A stretch of 64,000 bases of DNA from Leeuwenhoekiella aestuarii (GTDB lineage Bacteria > Bacteroidota > Bacteroidia > Flavobacteriales > Flavobacteriaceae): assembly GCF_004104055.1 (NCBI RefSeq), contig NZ_QOVJ01000001.1, positions 1,240,001-1,304,000 of the forward strand, read 5' to 3'. Numbering within the stretch: the first letter of the stretch is position 1; each line of letters opens with the position of its first letter. The notes beneath the pieces are model-generated. The model saw nothing but the letters and a program-made list of their open reading frames with translations, searched no databases and was not told the origin of the DNA. This document shows, one piece after another, positions 2,615 to 8,809 of this stretch. The position numbers were made by a program, and so were the translations under genes.

Positions 2615-3859
2615 ATGAGGCATATCTATTCCTTTTTTATTGCACTTTTTCAGGCCTTACTTCCGGTATTGGGACTATTCAGCTCTAAACTGAAAGAATT
2701 CAGGAGTGTACGTAAACCAGTATTTTCTTATTTAGAGAGTAAAATTAATGGTTCAGATCGGTTGATCTGGGTACATGCCGCTTCTTTAGGTGAATATGAG
2801 CAAGCAGTACCCGTTCTTGAAGCTTTGAGGGTTGAATACCCAAAGCATAAAATACTACTTACTTTTTTTTCGCCTTCAGGCTATACCATAAAAAAAGACA
2901 CGCCACTAGCAGATATTGTTACCTATTTGCCGCTTGACACCAAGTCTAATGCAAACACTTTTATAAACTGTTTAAGTCCTGAATTGGTGCTTTTTGTGAA
3001 GTATGAATTTTGGCCTAATTATTTAGAAAAATTAAAACGCAATAACATTCACACTATATTGATATCTGGAGTTTTTAGAGAAAGTCAACCTTTTTTTAAG
3101 TTTTACGGAAGTTGGATGAAGAAGTCCTTAAAAGCTTTTAATTACTTCTTTTTACAAAATGAATCTTCTTTGAAAAATCTCAAAAAATTAGGGTTTGCAA
3201 ATGGAGAAGTTAGCGGAGATACACGTTTTGACCGTGTGAGCAGACAACTTGATTATAATAATACCTTAGAGTTTATTGCTGAATTTAAACAAGACAAGCT
3301 TTTGCTGGTTTGTGGGAGTACTTGGCCAGAAGATGAAGCAAACTTACTGGATTTTATCAATAGTAAAGCAGATGTTAAGATCGTTCTTGCACCACATAAA
3401 ATAAATGCAGAAAAGATTGAAGATTTCCGCAGTAGGCTGAATAAGAAGGTGATCTTATATTCTGAATTGCAATCAAAAAACCTACAAAAAGCTGATGTTT
3501 TGATCATTGATGCCATTGGTTTTTTGACTAAAATTTATGCTTATGCAGACCTAGCATATGTGGGCGGTGCTGCTGGTAATACTGGGTTGCATAATGTATT
3601 AGAGCCGGCAACCTTTGGGCTTCCTATTTTAACCGGAACGCATATAGAGAAATTCCCAGAGGCTGGTCAACTCAATAGGTTAGCAGCATTATTTACTGTA
3701 AAGACCCCCGAAGAAACTTCAGCGGTTTTAGAAAAATTGATTTCAGATAAAAATTTTAGAGAAAAGACAGGTATAATTTCGGGTCAGTTTGTTTCTCAAA
3801 ACACGGGAGCAACACGCTCAATTATAAATTATTTGAAAAATCAAACACTTACCGCCTGA
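2615..3859 (+). CDS. waaA: 3-deoxy-D-manno-octulosonic acid (Kdo) transferase
   Basis: A 414-residue GT30 glycosyltransferase that adds Kdo to lipid A precursors at the inner face of the cytoplasmic membrane. The N-terminus has a hydrophobic anchor, then WVHAASLGEYEQ with the Glu typical of the family's catalytic base, VKYEFWPN, and the C-terminal donor-binding GGAAGNTGLHNVLEPA segment. A longer reading frame opens at 2507, but the 36 extra residues are unlike the family and contain the -7 box, so I start at 2615. The last 19 bases overlap the convergent DUF2461 gene. Confidence 0.92.
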   Translation: MRHIYSFFIALFQALLPVLGLFSSKLKEFRSVRKPVFSYLESKINGSDRLIWVHAASLGEYEQAVPVLEALRVEYPKHKILLTFFSPSGYTIKKDTPLADIVTYLPLDTKSNANTFINCLSPELVLFVKYEFWPNYLEKLKRNNIHTILISGVFRESQPFFKFYGSWMKKSLKAFNYFFLQNESSLKNLKKLGFANGEVSGDTRFDRVSRQLDYNNTLEFIAEFKQDKLLLVCGSTWPEDEANLLDFINSKADVKIVLAPHKINAEKIEDFRSRLNKKVILYSELQSKNLQKADVLIIDAIGFLTKIYAYADLAYVGGAAGNTGLHNVLEPATFGLPILTGTHIEKFPEAGQLNRLAALFTVKTPEETSAVLEKLISDKNFREKTGIISGQFVSQNTGATRSIINYLKNQTLTA

Positions 3860-4652: not shown

Positions 4653-4865
4653 ATGAAAAAAGTAATTGGAATTTTTGTTTTAAGTCTTTTAGCTTTCAAC
4701 ACGTTTTCTTGTAGAGAAACTAAAGAAAAGGAAACAGTGATTGTAAAAGAAGTTGAAGTAGAAGATGACCGCGAAGGTATTCTAGAGCGTACAGCAAAAA
4801 AAGTTGATAATGAAGTGAATAAAGAAATCGATCAGGAAATTGAAAATATCGGAGACGATAATTAA
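4653..4865 (+). CDS. Small acidic lipoprotein, CRE-type (copy 1)
   Basis: A 70-residue protein. A hydrophobic signal sequence ends in TFSC, a relaxed Bacteroidetes lipobox, and the mature part would start with Cys-Arg-Glu. The mature chain is almost entirely charged and probably helical. It belongs to a local group of four (4653, 4876, 8107, 8573) that share the signal style, the CRE start and an acidic tail. It lies 10 bp from copy 2 and probably shares its transcript. No function is known; outer- or inner-membrane anchoring is inferred from the Cys only. Confidence 0.7.
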   Translation: MKKVIGIFVLSLLAFNTFSCRETKEKETVIVKEVEVEDDREGILERTAKKVDNEVNKEIDQEIENIGDDN

Positions 4866-4875
4866 TATTGAAATT

Positions 4876-5112
4876 ATGAAAAAGATAAGCATATTAGCGA
4901 GTCTACTAGTAATGGTTACACTTTCTGTTACTTCTTGTCGTGAGAAGAGTGAGAAAGAAAAACTAGTAGAAGAGATGAAAGAAGAAGGTGCTGAGATCGA
5001 AACAAAAACAGACGATGACGGCAACTATAAGATGAAAATGGAATCTGACGATAAAGAAGTCAAGATCAAAGAAGATGCAGACGGCGATACTAAGATCAAA
5101 GTAGATCACTAA
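4876..5112 (+). CDS. Small acidic lipoprotein, CRE-type (copy 2)
   Basis: A 78-residue protein with a signal sequence ending in VTSC followed by REKSEKE. I use the ATG at 4876 rather than an in-frame one at 4840, because the upstream residues would precede the signal and overlap copy 1. The tail has repeated short blocks of Asp-Gly-(Asp/Asn) with alternating Lys and Met/Ile (EIETKTDDDGNYKMKMES, then DKEVKIKEDADGDTKIKV), suggesting a small repeated beta or ion-binding element distinct from the helical tails of copies 3 and 4. A strong hairpin terminator follows at 5134. Confidence 0.7.
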   Translation: MKKISILASLLVMVTLSVTSCREKSEKEKLVEEMKEEGAEIETKTDDDGNYKMKMESDDKEVKIKEDADGDTKIKVDH

Positions 5113-5187: not shown

Positions 5188-5955
5188 TTATTTAAAATTG
5201 CGCATTTGATTTTTTAATTCTTCCATGCCTTGTTGTAGTTCGCGTAAAAGATTACTTTCTGACGGAGAATCTAAGTGAAAAGTAAGTTTACTATTTACTT
5301 GCCACAATTCTTGAATATCACTTACCTGAACTTCAAAGGGTAAATATTCTTGATTCAGAGAAATTAATAGAACTTTAGAAGGGTCAGGTAATTTTTGTAA
5401 TTTTTTGATCACAACTGCATCTGGCATAACAACTACATAAACCCGGTTAGTTATGGCTTCGTCCATATTTGAAATGGCTTTACCTAAAACCCAGTCTTCG
5501 GGCATAAAATTAGGTAGCATGCTATCTCCTTCTATTTGAAAACCACGGTATGTAGCGTTACGATATTGTGGTAACGGGAGATCAAAAGCAGGGAGTTGTT
5601 GATACCATTCAACATCTTGTACATTATGTGGATATCCTGCAGCGGCTTTCTGATTAACCATAACCAGATTTTCATTATCATCAACATCGACGGTAACCAC
5701 TTTTGGACTTACATCTCCTTTTCCAGCGTGTATAAGCTTCTGATTGCTGTAACCAAAAAGCCATAACGGGTTCACATTATAGAGGCGTAAGAGTTCGGTT
5801 ACTACTTGACCAGAAAGTTTGGTCCTTCCGCGTTCAATATCTGCTGTAGAATTTTTAATTCCCAAAGCTTGAGCAAACTCAGTTTGCGTTAAACTCTGTT
5901 CCTCGCGTATTTGCTTAAATCGACGTACGTCGCCGGTTACATCATTGATTCCCAT
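5188..5955 (-). CDS. XRE/S24 self-cleaving transcriptional repressor (LexA-like)
   Basis: A 255-residue repressor with an N-terminal helix-turn-helix (about residues 10-70, LTQTEFAQALGI) and a C-terminal S24 peptidase domain. The cleavage site AAAG (A106-G107), the catalytic Ser145 in EGDSM and the Lys184 in VIKKLQK are all present, so RecA-stimulated or other damage-induced self-cleavage is plausible. I use the ATG at 5955; the in-frame ATG at 6015 adds 20 residues that run into the operator repeats. It is divergent from a radical-SAM/DUF4130 pair of DNA-repair-linked families across a 98-bp repeat-rich gap, so it probably represses that operon and itself. It resembles phage repressors, but no phage genes are near. 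Confidence 0.88.
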   Translation of the reverse strand: MGINDVTGDVRRFKQIREEQSLTQTEFAQALGIKNSTADIERGRTKLSGQVVTELLRLYNVNPLWLFGYSNQKLIHAGKGDVSPKVVTVDVDDNENLVMVNQKAAAGYPHNVQDVEWYQQLPAFDLPLPQYRNATYRGFQIEGDSMLPNFMPEDWVLGKAISNMDEAITNRVYVVVMPDAVVIKKLQKLPDPSKVLLISLNQEYLPFEVQVSDIQELWQVNSKLTFHLDSPSESNLLRELQQGMEELKNQMRNFK

Positions 5956-5959
5956 ATGG

Positions 5960-5967
5960 TAAATATA
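5960..5967 (-). promoter_or_regulatory. Possible -7 box for the S24 repressor
   Basis: On the minus strand TATATTTA matches TAnnTTTG at 7 of 8 positions and ends 4 bp before the ATG at 5955, implying a leaderless transcript. Repeat unit 1 of the operator array abuts it. Confidence 0.35.
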
Positions 5968-5968
5968 C

Positions 5969-6048
5969 TTTAATTCGGAATAAATCCAATTTAAATATAG
6001 GAAAAAATCCTTCAATAGGGAAAAATGCTTTAATTTCGTAAAAATTCC
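5969..6048. promoter_or_regulatory. Four-unit operator-like repeat array between S24 repressor and repair genes
   Basis: Four related 15-18-bp units start at 5969, 5990, 6011 and 6029 (spacing 21, 21, 18). They read TTTAATTCGGAATAAA, TTTAAATATAGGAAAAAA, TTCAATAGGGAAAAA and TTTAATTTCGTAAAAA, and the first two continue into ATCC. Units 1 and 4 are near-dyads. The spacing of about two helical turns places them on one face of the DNA, as expected for cooperative repressor dimers. Unit 4 overlaps TAATTTCG (6031-6038), a near-consensus -7 box for the rightward operon. Confidence 0.55.
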
Positions 6049-6053
6049 AGGCT

Positions 6054-7316
6054 ATGAATTTTGAGAGAATTAGAGAAAAATTAAATATTCTTGCTGATGC
6101 AGCCAAGTATGATGTGTCGTGTTCCAGTAGTGGAAGCAAGCGTAAAAACACGACAAAGGGTCTGGGGGATAGCTCGGGTATGGGTATTTGCCATAGTTAT
6201 ACTGAAGATGGGCGGTGTATCTCTTTGTTGAAAATTCTATTGACCAATCATTGTATTTTTGACTGTGCCTATTGTGTCAGCCGAAAGAGTAATGACATCA
6301 AGCGCGCGGGATTTAAGATCCAGGAGGTAGTAGACCTCACTATTAATTTTTACCGTCGTAATTATATTGAAGGTTTATTTCTAAGTAGCGGAATTTTCTC
6401 AAGTCCAGATTACACGATGGAACGATTGATAGCTGTTGCTAAGAAGCTTCGGCTTGAGGAGAATTTTAATGGGTATATTCATTTGAAATCTATTCCCGGT
6501 TGTAGTGATGAGTTGATGCGGGAAGCCGGTTTGTATGCAGATCGACTTTCAATTAATATAGAGATTCCTACAGTTTCTGGTCTCAAATTACTTGCACCTG
6601 AAAAAGATCATAAAGATTTTATTAAGCCTATAGAAAAGGTTAAGAATGAAATCATACAATACCAGGCAGATAAAAAGCTTATTAAAAATACCCCGGTCTA
6701 TGCACCGGCGGGCCAGAGTACTCAGATGATCGTAGGCGCTACGGGAGAGAGCGATAAAGATATTATGTATTCTGCAGTACATTATTATAGCACTTATAAG
6801 ATGAAACGGGTGTATTACTCAGGTTACGTACCGGTTTTGCATGATGAGCGTTTACCGGCATTAGGAACCGAAGTGCCTATGCTTCGTGAGAACAGACTCT
6901 ATCAGACAGACTGGCTGTTGCGCTTTTATGGTTTTGATGTACGTGAGCTTTTGAATAATCAGCATCCTAATCTTGATATTGATATTGATCCAAAATTGAG
7001 TTGGGCATTGCGTAATATGAATTTGTTCCCAGTTGATGTGAATAAAGCAGACAAGCGAATGCTGGCTAGAATCCCCGGGTTGGGAATGCTTTCAGTTAAC
7101 AAGATTTTAAATGCCAGAAAGTATAGGAGACTCAATTGGGAAAATCTAAAGGCTATTGGTATTGCGATGAACCGTGCTAAATATTTTATAGTTTGTGATT
7201 CTAAAGACTGGGAACACAAAGATCTAGAGCCGGCTCATATAAAGAGTATGATTTTACAAAGTTCTCAAAGTAAATATCAGAAAATGTACAACAAGCAGTT
7301 GAGATTATTTAATTGA
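6054..7316 (+). CDS. Radical SAM protein linked to DNA modification/repair
   Basis: A 420-residue radical-SAM enzyme of the TIGR03916 type (putative DNA modification/repair radical SAM, found with uracil-DNA-glycosylase-like partners). The iron-sulfur motif is C-x3-C-x2-C in NHCIFDCAYC near residue 66. The C-terminal part has a helix-hairpin-helix (VNKADKRMLARIPGLGMLSV, about residues 330-350) typical of non-specific DNA binding. The N-terminus LNILADAAKYDVSCSS is conserved in this family. The stop overlaps the start of the next gene (TGATG), indicating translational coupling. The reaction is not known. It is probably under control of the divergent S24 repressor. Confidence 0.88.
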   Translation: MNFERIREKLNILADAAKYDVSCSSSGSKRKNTTKGLGDSSGMGICHSYTEDGRCISLLKILLTNHCIFDCAYCVSRKSNDIKRAGFKIQEVVDLTINFYRRNYIEGLFLSSGIFSSPDYTMERLIAVAKKLRLEENFNGYIHLKSIPGCSDELMREAGLYADRLSINIEIPTVSGLKLLAPEKDHKDFIKPIEKVKNEIIQYQADKKLIKNTPVYAPAGQSTQMIVGATGESDKDIMYSAVHYYSTYKMKRVYYSGYVPVLHDERLPALGTEVPMLRENRLYQTDWLLRFYGFDVRELLNNQHPNLDIDIDPKLSWALRNMNLFPVDVNKADKRMLARIPGLGMLSVNKILNARKYRRLNWENLKAIGIAMNRAKYFIVCDSKDWEHKDLEPAHIKSMILQSSQSKYQKMYNKQLRLFN

Positions 7317-8062
7317 TGAAAACTCAAAAGCTTAAATACGACGGTACTTTTGAAGGATTGCTTACTGCGATTTTTACCGTTTATGAAGAGCGTTTATCTT
7401 CTGCTCACATAATTGAAGAGCGCTTTTTTGAACCTGACTTTTTCTCAGAATTGATTACGGTTTTTACAGATGAGAATAAGGCTTCGCGAGTTTGGGAAGG
7501 ATTGAAAAGTTTTCAGCAGTTTAGGACTTCGGTTTATCGCTCATTCCTAAGCGGACTGCCTGATAAAGAAGTACACATTCTGGATGCGATTCAATATGTA
7601 TTGAAAACAAAAAATGATAAAGATTATGGGCATCCTTCGGTTTTGAAAATGGCTCAAATCACTAAACAGATCGGTCGTGAAAAACACAGAATGGAAGCTT
7701 TTGTCAGGTTTAAGCGAACAAAAGATGATATATATGTGGCGATTATAGAACCTGATTTTAATGTACTTCCTCTTATAGCAAAGCACTTTAAAAACAGGTA
7801 TGCAGATCAGCAATTTGTAATTTATGACAGGTCACGCAGTTATGGTATTTTTTATGATCTAAATTCCGTTCAATTTATTGAGCTCGATTTTAACGATACT
7901 GTCTTGAAAGAAGCTCTTCACGATGAGGAAAAGCATTATGATGAGATGTGGCAAGACTATTTTATAAGTACCGGCATTAAAAGCAGAATCAATAAAAAAT
8001 TGCATTTACGCAACGTTCCCAAACGGTATTGGAAGTATTTAAATGAAAAAAAACCACTTTAA
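7316..8062 (+). CDS. DUF4130 / TIGR03915 DNA metabolism protein
   Basis: A 248-residue protein of the TIGR03915 family (probable DNA metabolism protein, the usual genomic partner of TIGR03916 radical-SAM enzymes). Typical segments are YDGTFEGLLTAIFTVYEER at the N-terminus, IGREKHRMEAFVRF and YVAIIEPDFNVLPLIAKHFKNRYADQ in the middle, and the C-terminal RNVPKRYWKYL. In many bacteria this family carries a fused uracil-DNA-glycosylase domain. At 248 residues that domain is absent here, so the glycosylase, if needed, must come from elsewhere. The ATG at 7316 shares one base with the upstream stop. Confidence 0.85.
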   Translation: MKTQKLKYDGTFEGLLTAIFTVYEERLSSAHIIEERFFEPDFFSELITVFTDENKASRVWEGLKSFQQFRTSVYRSFLSGLPDKEVHILDAIQYVLKTKNDKDYGHPSVLKMAQITKQIGREKHRMEAFVRFKRTKDDIYVAIIEPDFNVLPLIAKHFKNRYADQQFVIYDRSRSYGIFYDLNSVQFIELDFNDTVLKEALHDEEKHYDEMWQDYFISTGIKSRINKKLHLRNVPKRYWKYLNEKKPL

Positions 8063-8106: not shown

Positions 8107-8325
8107 ATGAAAAGAATTTTTTTAAGTGTATTGATGATTGCTTTTACAATATCTGTTTACTCATGTAGAGAAACCACTCAAGAAAAAACAGAGGAGGCAG
8201 TTGAAGCTATGGGAGAAGATATTGAAAATGCAGCAGAAGAAGCAGGTGATGCAATACAAGAAGGTGCAGATGAACTAAACGATGAAATTCAAGGAAATGA
8301 TGATGTGATGGACGACGATGCATAA
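8107..8325 (+). CDS. Small acidic lipoprotein, CRE-type (copy 3)
   Basis: A 72-residue protein whose signal sequence ends in VYSC, followed by RETTQEKTEEAVEAMG. The tail is an Ala/Glu/Asp-rich amphipathic helix with small residues every three to four positions. It is close to copy 4 (8573-8809) along its whole length: both end in a GNDD motif. It starts 44 bp after the DUF4130 gene and could be cotranscribed with the repair operon, although a TATTTTTAG sequence in the gap might be a weak promoter. Function unknown. Confidence 0.7.
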   Translation: MKRIFLSVLMIAFTISVYSCRETTQEKTEEAVEAMGEDIENAAEEAGDAIQEGADELNDEIQGNDDVMDDDA

Positions 8326-8344
8326 GTATCATATTTGAAGAATA

Positions 8345-8380
8345 AAAAAGCATTTTAAAAGTAATTTTAAGATGCTTTTT
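8345..8380 (+). terminator. Intrinsic terminator after lipoprotein copy 3
   Basis: AAAAAGCAT...TTTTAA and TTAAAA...ATGCTTTTT form an AT-rich hairpin followed by a T-rich stretch. The 190 bases after it, up to the promoter at 8531, are AT-rich and show no gene. Confidence 0.65.
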
Positions 8381-8530
8381 GTTTTTATATTCAGAATAGT
8401 TGTATTGAAAAATTAAAAAAATGTTTACTCTCTGTTAATCAAATTGTTGTGAAGATTGCGATATTTTTATCAAATATGTAAATCGATGAAAAATTTAATA
8501 AAATTTAAGAATAAGCGATGTTAATTTATA

Positions 8531-8538
8531 TACATTTG
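8531..8538 (+). promoter_or_regulatory. -7 box for lipoprotein copy 4
   Basis: TACATTTG matches TAnnTTTG, 34 bp before the ATG at 8573. A TATA-rich stretch precedes it, but no clear -33 TTTG is seen. Confidence 0.45.
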
Positions 8539-8572
8539 ACACTGATTAACGCTAATTAAAATTACATCAATT

Positions 8573-8809
8573 ATGAAAAAATTTATGTTCAGTGCATTTG
8601 CACTATTACTAATGGTTTCTGTTTCTGCTTGTCGCGAAACTACTGAAGAAAAAACTGAAGACGCTATGGAAAGCGCTGCTGATGATATGGGTGATGCTAT
8701 GGATGATGCAGGAGATGCTGTAGAAGAAGCTGCTGAAGACACAGGTGACGCTATCGAAGATGGTGCTCAGGAAGTAGAAGACGAAGTTGAAGGAAACGAC
8801 GACATGTAA
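8573..8809 (+). CDS. Small acidic lipoprotein, CRE-type (copy 4)
   Basis: A 78-residue protein with signal sequence ending in VSAC, then RETTEEKTEDAMES. The tail is built of repeated D-A-(M/V/I)-x-x-A blocks (EDAMESAADDMGDAMDD, then AGDAVEEAAEDTGDAIEDG), giving an alanine/acid amphipathic helix resembling stress-protection or coiled-coil proteins. It is the closest relative of copy 3. It has its own promoter and a strong terminator. Lipid anchoring is inferred from the Cys; the role is unknown. Confidence 0.72.
   Translation: MKKFMFSAFALLLMVSVSACRETTEEKTEDAMESAADDMGDAMDDAGDAVEEAAEDTGDAIEDGAQEVEDEVEGNDDM

Follow-up and report, generated by a model that had tools for sequence, protein, structure and literature searches.

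The XRE/S24 repressor encoded in the 64,000-nucleotide stretch of DNA analysed here (the window) is very probably a general SOS regulator of a Leeuwenhoekiella-type flavobacterium; its operator array would repress a divergent cassette whose radical-SAM (rSAM) enzyme would be recruited to the replication clamp and act together with a DUF4130 protein. As read from the sequence, this interpretation draws on family membership, the cleavage and dyad residues, a conserved operator array, operators common to loci across the genome, and a conserved C-terminal motif; it also draws, by analogy, on the DNA binding and mitomycin C induction demonstrated in a relative (PMC8565304). The published system explains the regulation, and the switch is therefore of a known kind rather than a new one.

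The repressor gene occupies positions 5188..5955 of the reverse strand and starts at the ATG at 5955, giving a 255-aa protein; a 275-aa frame from the TTG at 6015 is a mechanical extension only. Profile searches identify an N-terminal HTH_3 domain (PF01381) and a C-terminal peptidase S24 domain (PF00717). The helix-turn-helix matches with E up to 0.001 are HTH_3, HTH_31, and HTH_19 only, and the LexA winged HTH (PF01726) is not among them. Comparison with PDB sequences returned two weak HTH matches and nothing further. An S24 repressor with an Ala-Gly cleavage site (A106-G107) and a Ser145/Lys184 dyad had been claimed in the initial annotation; these residues lie where they were placed and are identical in 40/40 aligned relatives (40 of 41 relatives were taken in, L043 being left out for its short frame). 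The designation as an SOS-type repressor is likewise upheld by the match to the published non-canonical LexA of the GGA-N5-TCC group, described from Bacteroidetes/Flavobacteriaceae (Sanchez-Osuna et al. 2021, PMC8565304). Over 247 aa, the window repressor shares 71% identity with L014, the sole relative returned for Salegentibacter agarivorans DSM 23515, a strain whose protein WP_075324850.1 needs GGA-N5-TCC in EMSA and site-directed mutagenesis (PMC8565304). Judged by identity to this same-strain locus, the repressor appears to be orthologous to the characterised S. agarivorans protein.

The gap between the repressor and rSAM genes measures 98 bp (5956-6053) and holds four GGA-N5-TCC sites. 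Nearest the repressor is O4 (5977..5987, GGAATAAATCC), which is perfect, as is O3 (6000..6010, GGAAAAAATCC); O2 (6019..6029) is weak, with two mismatches in the window, and O1 (6038..6048, GTAAAAATTCC) has one. The initial annotation had described four repeats at about 21-bp spacing covering both start regions: the array does extend over both, but its units are GGA-N5-TCC sites at spacings of 23, 19, and 19, one of them weak. Probable -7 boxes, assigned by the consensus TAnnTTTG, lie at 5960..5967 on the reverse strand for the repressor gene (TATATTTA, with TATATTTG in its place in several relatives) and at 6031..6038 on the forward strand for the rSAM operon (TAATTTCG, its last G common to O1). 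Because the four sites cover the promoters of both the repressor gene and the rSAM-DUF4130 operon, one array would repress in both directions. Among 20,000 dinucleotide-shuffled versions of the gap, none reached the observed score, two perfect sites arose in 2, and three sites with one mismatch or none arose in 12.

The array is conserved among relatives. Sites with at most one mismatch are found within 62 bp of the repressor ATG in 41/41 readable promoters, and two such sites in 37/41 (the window plus 40 of 41 loci, L016 beginning at the gene; positions are counted from the in-frame ATG). A distal site is present in 13/13 loci where a repair gene diverges directly from the repressor versus 1/26 where none does (L033 and L038 are not in this table, and L016 is not readable); the corresponding Fisher value of 1.7e-9 is no real probability because the loci are related, representing about two lineages. 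O2 has one mismatch in 8/10 other loci with directly divergent rSAM, and its position in L004 and L005 holds no site within one mismatch. Four-site arrays with spacings of 19/18-19/22-23 occur in L239, L244, L262, and Gillisia dinB loci, where the GTA half-site of O1 also recurs; the bidirectional arrangement is present in five lineages. The available sections of PMC8565304 carry no description of a four-site divergent array. At the level of sequence, the operators bear out the predicted control of the rSAM/DUF4130 pair.

Whether this control is exclusive is decided by the distribution of operators in the genome. The single GGA-N5-TCC 11-mer is not enriched (61 oriented matches versus 73 for the reversed control), and the two perfect sites in the window are no excess (36/100 shuffles reach two). 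Enrichment is confined to site pairs about 19 bp apart; pairs were used for the genome scan because the single-site scan gave no excess. Such pairs precede umuD (umuDC), dinB, a DnaQ/GIY-YIG nuclease gene, and a PA0069-like radical-SAM gene in this genome, and recA is preceded by two GGA-N5-TCC sites. A search of 31 genomes yielded matches in 16, including 13/13 of the genus, with 95 oriented pair matches versus 1 for the reversed control. Of 63 distinct pair sites, 56 precede homologues of recA, umuD, dinB, DnaQ-GIY, PA0069, or rSAM-repressor genes and six of the remaining seven lie beside UvrD-like, SRAP, or DnaE-like genes (62/63 beside repair genes overall).

These results contradict the private switch proposed by the initial annotation, in which the repressor would govern nothing beyond its own gene and the rSAM-DUF4130 pair. 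The proposal has in its favour the three gap sites that are perfect or one mismatch away and the divergent rSAM gene, which adjoins the repressor directly in 10/41 loci, with one gene between in Aquimarina intermedia, and in two further genomes either directly (L239) or behind a small gene (L244). Yet the same operator pairs stand before the other SOS genes in this genome and genus-wide, and the repressor lacks the cassette beside it in 28/39 loci (39 of 41 counted, L016 and L033 being cut on the upstream side). An exclusive circuit is thus highly improbable and was rejected. A second XRE-S24 protein (L001, region C3:598240), with an S24 domain and aligned Ala-Gly and GDSM residues, might instead be the true operator binder and the window repressor merely its target. 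This is very unlikely: L001 is 27% identical to the window repressor, which itself is far closer to the S. agarivorans relative, and the 3.3 kb around L001 contain no perfect GGA-N5-TCC site and hence no sign of autoregulation. A search for CTAA-N5-TTAG near this second repressor also found none. L001 could share operators with the window repressor.

Conservation of the repeats alongside the gene pair, a further expectation of the initial annotation, holds where the pair adjoins the repressor and mostly fails elsewhere. In a survey of other cassettes, 32 loci were read, 29 of them with rSAM and mostly unlinked to the repressor; the GGA-N5-TCC array is absent from the stretch read in 27/29. Perfect GGA sites occur within 200 bp upstream in 1/29, a count that does not take in L244, where the array stands before the leading small gene. 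A CTAA-N5-TTAG-like site lies within 200 bp upstream in 8/29 versus 7.4% of random windows. Outside repressor-linked lineages, the SOS box is absent from most cassettes examined.

The cassette itself consists of two coupled genes divergent from the repressor, as originally described. The rSAM gene (6054..7316, forward strand) encodes a 420-aa TIGR03916 protein (666.9 bits, cut-off 343.5) with a CxxxCxxC motif, C67-x3-C71-x2-C74 (6252..6275, forward strand), that is invariant in 12/12 aligned proteins. A C-terminal HhH match is below cut-off. Against PDB sequences, its profile was uninformative apart from a weak match of the C-terminal part with RuvA (E 0.0037), and the AlphaFold model is too poor for use (mean pLDDT 37.2). 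The second gene (7316..8062, forward strand) overlaps the first by 1 bp, its ATG at 7316 lying inside the rSAM stop, and encodes a 248-aa TIGR03915/DUF4130 protein (257.5 bits, cut-off 112.25) without a UDG domain; its profile returned nothing informative from PDB sequences.

SOS control of the radical-SAM operon has already been predicted, with the partner labelled uracil-DNA glycosylase, COG1573-COG4277 (PMC8565304). After this label, the cassette could be read as a uracil-DNA-glycosylase base-excision system, and in Phaeobacter, Rhizobium, and Azospirillum the TIGR03916-type genes are indeed followed by UdgX-annotated, DUF4130-matched proteins of 476-484 aa. However, 12 DUF4130 proteins gave no UDG (PF03167) match up to E 1, in agreement with the earlier remark that the domain fused elsewhere is lacking here, and the frames of all 64 DUF4130 matches, from 62 of the 198 genomes sampled across the phylum, measure 41-371 aa, so that by frame length the glycosylase domain is lacking in these genomes as well. 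This genome has two UDG-domain genes, both on other contigs and with no perfect GGA-N5-TCC upstream in the stretches examined. One GC-containing match near them falls inside a coding frame. For these genomes the glycosylase reading was rejected as most improbable, the domain being unmatched and the frames too short for the fusion. An operon labelled uracil-DNA glycosylase in PMC8565304 thus has no glycosylase domain here, and its repair role must therefore come from the rSAM enzyme and DUF4130 themselves.

A possible, though doubtful, refinement compatible with the SOS-regulated, clamp-recruited cassette is that DUF4130 is a divergent DHH/RecJ-like DNA-handling partner of rSAM. Its AlphaFold2 model (mean pLDDT 87.4) matched PAP phosphatase (E 6.6e-4), PggH (E 2.4e-3), family II pyrophosphatase, and a DHH-domain protein at Foldseek ranks 1-7, with RecJ and CDC45 lower; these proteins form one superfamily. 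The TM-scores are only 0.19-0.47, however, with large rmsd. In profile comparison, 34 DUF4130 proteins reached a probability of 0.7 with NrnA (20 proteins) and of 0.1 with RecJ (30 proteins); six unrelated controls scored 0.1-0.2, and NrnA compared with RecJ gave 44.6. Membership in the DHH superfamily is a lead from the structural model without profile support.

The rSAM protein ends in QLRLF (7296..7310, forward strand; residues 415-419 of 420), a predicted beta sliding-clamp-binding motif. A short motif of this kind at a C-terminus does not always mean binding. The strict form QxxLF is found in the last 8 residues of 35/60 rSAM frames versus 0/703 other frames, and the looser core Q-[LM]-x-L in the last 12 residues of 58/60 versus 9/703, where many of the 703 background frames are not genes and several of the nine are RecJ ends. 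The other 25/60 rSAM frames have the looser form only or, in 2/60, none in the last 12 residues. Because the frames come from related loci, the enrichment p-value is no real probability. The published consensus is QL[S/D]LF or QxxLF (PMC12309361). The PA0069-like radical SAM, a member of this regulon, ends in QLSLF, and in two related genomes short leader proteins bear the same C-terminal tag. A literature search found no report of a radical-SAM enzyme with a clamp-binding motif, and the texts consulted on TIGR03916/TIGR03915, the UdgX-linked rSAM cassette, leave such a C-terminal motif unmentioned. The rSAM tail probably docks the enzyme onto the replication clamp. The chances are about even that TIGR03916 as a family comprises clamp-tethered, SOS-induced radical-SAM repair enzymes that act at forks and are partnered by the non-UDG protein DUF4130; if so, the PA0069-like protein would be a second such enzyme. 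The conserved tail is a lead to the repair role of an uncharacterised radical-SAM family, which binding to DnaN would place at forks.

In the proposed mechanism, repressor dimers would bind the GGA-N5-TCC sites until DNA damage produces RecA filaments that promote self-cleavage at A106-G107 through S145/K184. Cleavage would free the cassette along with recA, umuDC, dinB, the DnaQ/GIY-YIG nuclease, and the PA0069-like radical SAM. Once induced, the rSAM enzyme may then be recruited by QLRLF to the beta clamp at forks that are stalled or undergoing repair, where rSAM and DUF4130 might jointly act on a lesion by radical chemistry.

Among known systems, the closest is the GGA-N5-TCC LexA group of PMC8565304, which likewise combines HTH_3 with S24, has the Ala-Gly and Ser-Lys residues, and carries GGA-N5-TCC in its own promoter. 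Its regulon also includes dinB, umuDC, recA, an SplB-type radical SAM, a GIY-YIG exonuclease, and the COG1573-COG4277 operon; mitomycin C induces the S. agarivorans LexA gene itself and target genes, and recA is not induced there (PMC8565304). The name Leeuwenhoekiella does not occur in the main text of that paper. The two systems differ in the partner, which is labelled uracil-DNA glycosylase there and is a DUF4130 protein without a UDG domain here. E. coli-type LexA has the S24 self-cleavage residues and an SOS regulon in common with the present repressor, but a LexA wHTH in place of the phage-CI-like HTH_3, and another operator. The UdgX-linked TIGR03916/TIGR03915 cassette has the same gene order with overlap, whereas DUF4130 here lacks the UdgX domain. 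As in clamp-binding repair proteins and polymerases such as PolC (PMC12309361), the rSAM motif stands at the extreme C-terminus.

The regulatory side of this locus is a member of an already published LexA system. As initially annotated, a 98-bp gap (5956-6053) separates the start of an S24 repressor gene (5188-5955, minus strand) from two divergent plus-strand genes, a radical-SAM gene (rSAM, 6054-7316) and a DUF4130 gene (7316-8062), whose scores far exceed the cut-offs of TIGR03916 and TIGR03915, respectively. The genome is of the Leeuwenhoekiella type and 4.43 Mb long, with the window at C1:1240001-1304000. The repressor starts at the ATG at 5955, comprises 255 residues with HTH_3 and Peptidase_S24 domains, and is 98% identical to its closest named relatives, from L. 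polynyae and L. marinoflava. The proposed A106-G107 bond, S145 and K184 are all present and are invariant in the 40 of 41 repressor relatives aligned (L043 was dropped). Sanchez-Osuna et al. (2021, PMC8565304) describe S24, CI-like non-canonical LexA proteins in Bacteroidetes, including a GGA-N5-TCC group that occurs chiefly in Flavobacteriaceae; for the protein of Salegentibacter agarivorans DSM 23515 they report EMSA, mutagenesis, and mitomycin C induction. Their regulon includes dinB, an SplB-type radical SAM gene, umuDC, recA, a GIY-YIG exonuclease, the regulator itself, and a COG1573-COG4277 operon. Because this GGA-N5-TCC LexA is published and the repressor of the DSM 23515 locus (L014) is 71% identical to that of the window, the regulatory part belongs to the known system.

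Short acidic Cys-lipoprotein-like genes flank the locus (4653-5112 and 8107-8809), and similar genes neighbour the repressor in Gillisia (L031), Salegentibacter (L013), and Dokdonia (L027). The genome also encodes a second XRE-S24 repressor (C3:598240-598518) with Ala-Gly and GDSM residues; it is only 27% identical to the window repressor, and no perfect GGA-N5-TCC or CTAA-N5-TTAG occurs in the 3.3 kb around it.

Comparison of upstream regions of relatives identifies the repeats in the gap as copies of the palindrome GGA-N5-TCC, which is 11 bp long and A/T-rich in the middle. The sites at 5977 and 6000 are perfect, that at 6038 has one mismatch, and that at 6019 has two; none of 20,000 dinucleotide shuffles of the gap attained its observed score. 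Each of the 41 readable repressor promoters carries a site with no more than one mismatch within 62 bp of the ATG, and 37 of them carry a second. A distal site, 66-100 bp from the repressor ATG, is found in 13 of 13 loci with a directly divergent repair gene (rSAM-DUF4130 in the window, nine Leeuwenhoekiella loci and L044; dinB in Gillisia L031 and L037) versus 1 of 26 loci without one (L041). It is also present in L033, whose upstream gene is beyond the stretch read; L038, with one gene between, has no site in the 66-100 bp range. The array spacing of 19, 18-19, and 22-23 recurs in L239, L244, and L262, which are of the same family, and in the Gillisia dinB loci, and is common to five lineages, Leeuwenhoekiella included. 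These same loci keep the GTA half of the outermost site. The apparent reason is that the G of this half also closes the probable -7 box (consensus TAnnTTTG) of the repair gene; in the window the box and the site overlap as TAATTTCG and GTAAAAATTCC. Repressor binding at the outermost site would directly cover the repair-gene promoter. Orthology and operators together make it very likely that the non-canonical LexA represses the cassette and that damage induces it.

Perfect single 11-mers show no excess in this genome (61 oriented matches versus 73 in the control), and those elsewhere fall mostly within reading frames or upstream of unrelated genes. Operator pairs spaced at 19 bp are enriched: in this genome they number 25 versus 9 in the control with up to three mismatches, and across 31 genomes, with at most one mismatch, 95 oriented matches were obtained versus 1. 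Besides the window array, pairs in the genome lie upstream of umuDC, dinB, a DnaQ/GIY-YIG nuclease gene, and a PA0069-like radical-SAM gene; recA has two upstream sites 51 bp apart (recA and umuC were named by eye; the dinB, nuclease, and radical-SAM products were identified by Pfam). All 63 distinct pair sites from the 31-genome search were read: in 56, a homologue of recA, umuD, dinB, DnaQ-GIY, PA0069, rSAM, or the repressor starts within 350 bp, and six of the other seven adjoin UvrD-like helicase (Pfam on one of four cases), SRAP, or DnaE-like genes. The last, L143, has no target. The position of operator pairs beside repair genes therefore indicates that an SOS regulon is governed by the repressor or by a protein with the same specificity.

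In three loci an operator pair lies between divergent UvrD-like helicase and GIY-YIG-type nuclease genes (L144 by Pfam; L150 and L180 by similar starts). For an intergenic pair with two mismatches at C4:134767-134796 no target is clear, and the stretch could encode a small RNA or a short protein. UmuD here (L068 3180-3551, on C3) has 123 residues and seemingly lacks both the Gly-Asp-Ser-Met nucleophile usual in UmuD, reading GNGW in its place, and the Ala/Cys-Gly bond; it is possibly a constitutively short UmuD'-like form.

The cassette was read in 32 loci, 24 of 24 outside family f16 and 8 of 37 within it. rSAM stands beside DUF4130 in 29, and this adjacency and the gene overlap make joint action likely. 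Among these 29 rSAM loci, only L239 has a GGA array directly upstream of the cassette, and L244 has one before a leading small gene; a CTAA-N5-TTAG-like site lies within 200 bp in 8 of 29 versus about 2 expected (random-window rate 7.4%). Judged from these upstream regions, SOS control of the cassette is not universal. At L262 a C-terminally shortened DUF4130 gene (3134-3793), divergent from the repressor, lies under a four-site array, and the 4.4 kb read there contains no homologue of rSAM; this looks like a decaying cassette.

The rSAM protein ends in NKQLRLFN. QL[S/D]LF, or QxxLF, is the consensus clamp-binding motif and is C-terminal in PolC (PMC12309361). Among 60 distinct rSAM frames, some partial, from Bacteroidota, Proteobacteria, and Gemmatimonadota, 35 have strict QxxLF within their last 8 residues, versus none of 703 other frames that are 150 residues or longer; 58 have the looser Q-[LM]-x-L core within their last 12, versus 9 of the 703, among which are several RecJ ends. 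Sixteen looser ends read QLVLPG. The core is missing from the last 12 residues only in L276, where QLSLW stands some 20 residues from the end, and in a fragment of L109. Terminal QxxLF also marks 12 of 12 PA0069-like proteins, this genome's included (QLSLF in 10, QLKLF or QMKLF in two). An operator pair stands 7 bp from the start of this genome's PA0069-like gene (L050 399-1475; C1 about 595758-596834). From motif conservation, there is about an even chance that the rSAM enzyme is delivered to the sliding clamp; a search for literature joining radical SAM with the clamp found no paper on such a motif. Directly behind the operator arrays, L244 has a 60-residue frame before rSAM ending in QLNLFD (2601-2783), and L262 a 68-residue frame before DUF4130 ending in QLSLF (2921-3127); these may encode small clamp-binding proteins. 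With the switch already known, it is the putatively clamp-tagged radical-SAM enzyme that merits testing.

The AlphaFold2 model of DUF4130 is good (mean pLDDT 87.4), and its top Foldseek matches in the PDB are DHH/RecJ-type enzymes, which we take to form the DHH superfamily, at TM-scores below 0.5. Profile comparison gave no support for a DUF4130-DHH relation, and membership is at present a lead from the model.

Searches on DUF4130, TIGR03915, COG4277, and UdgX returned only two papers relevant by title, PMC3765255 (2013) and PMC8565304 (2021). The former ties DUF4130 to SplB-like radical SAM proteins and uracil-DNA glycosylases by context, and the latter takes COG1573-COG4277 to be a uracil-DNA glycosylase system. 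DUF4130 occurs in 62 of 198 genomes of the phylum, in frames of 41-371 residues versus 476-484 for UdgX-annotated fusions of Phaeobacter, Rhizobium, and Azospirillum; judged by this difference in frame length, the glycosylase reading should not be extended to these genomes. In contrast to the COG1573-COG4277 system of PMC8565304, the partner here is a DUF4130 protein without a uracil-DNA glycosylase domain.
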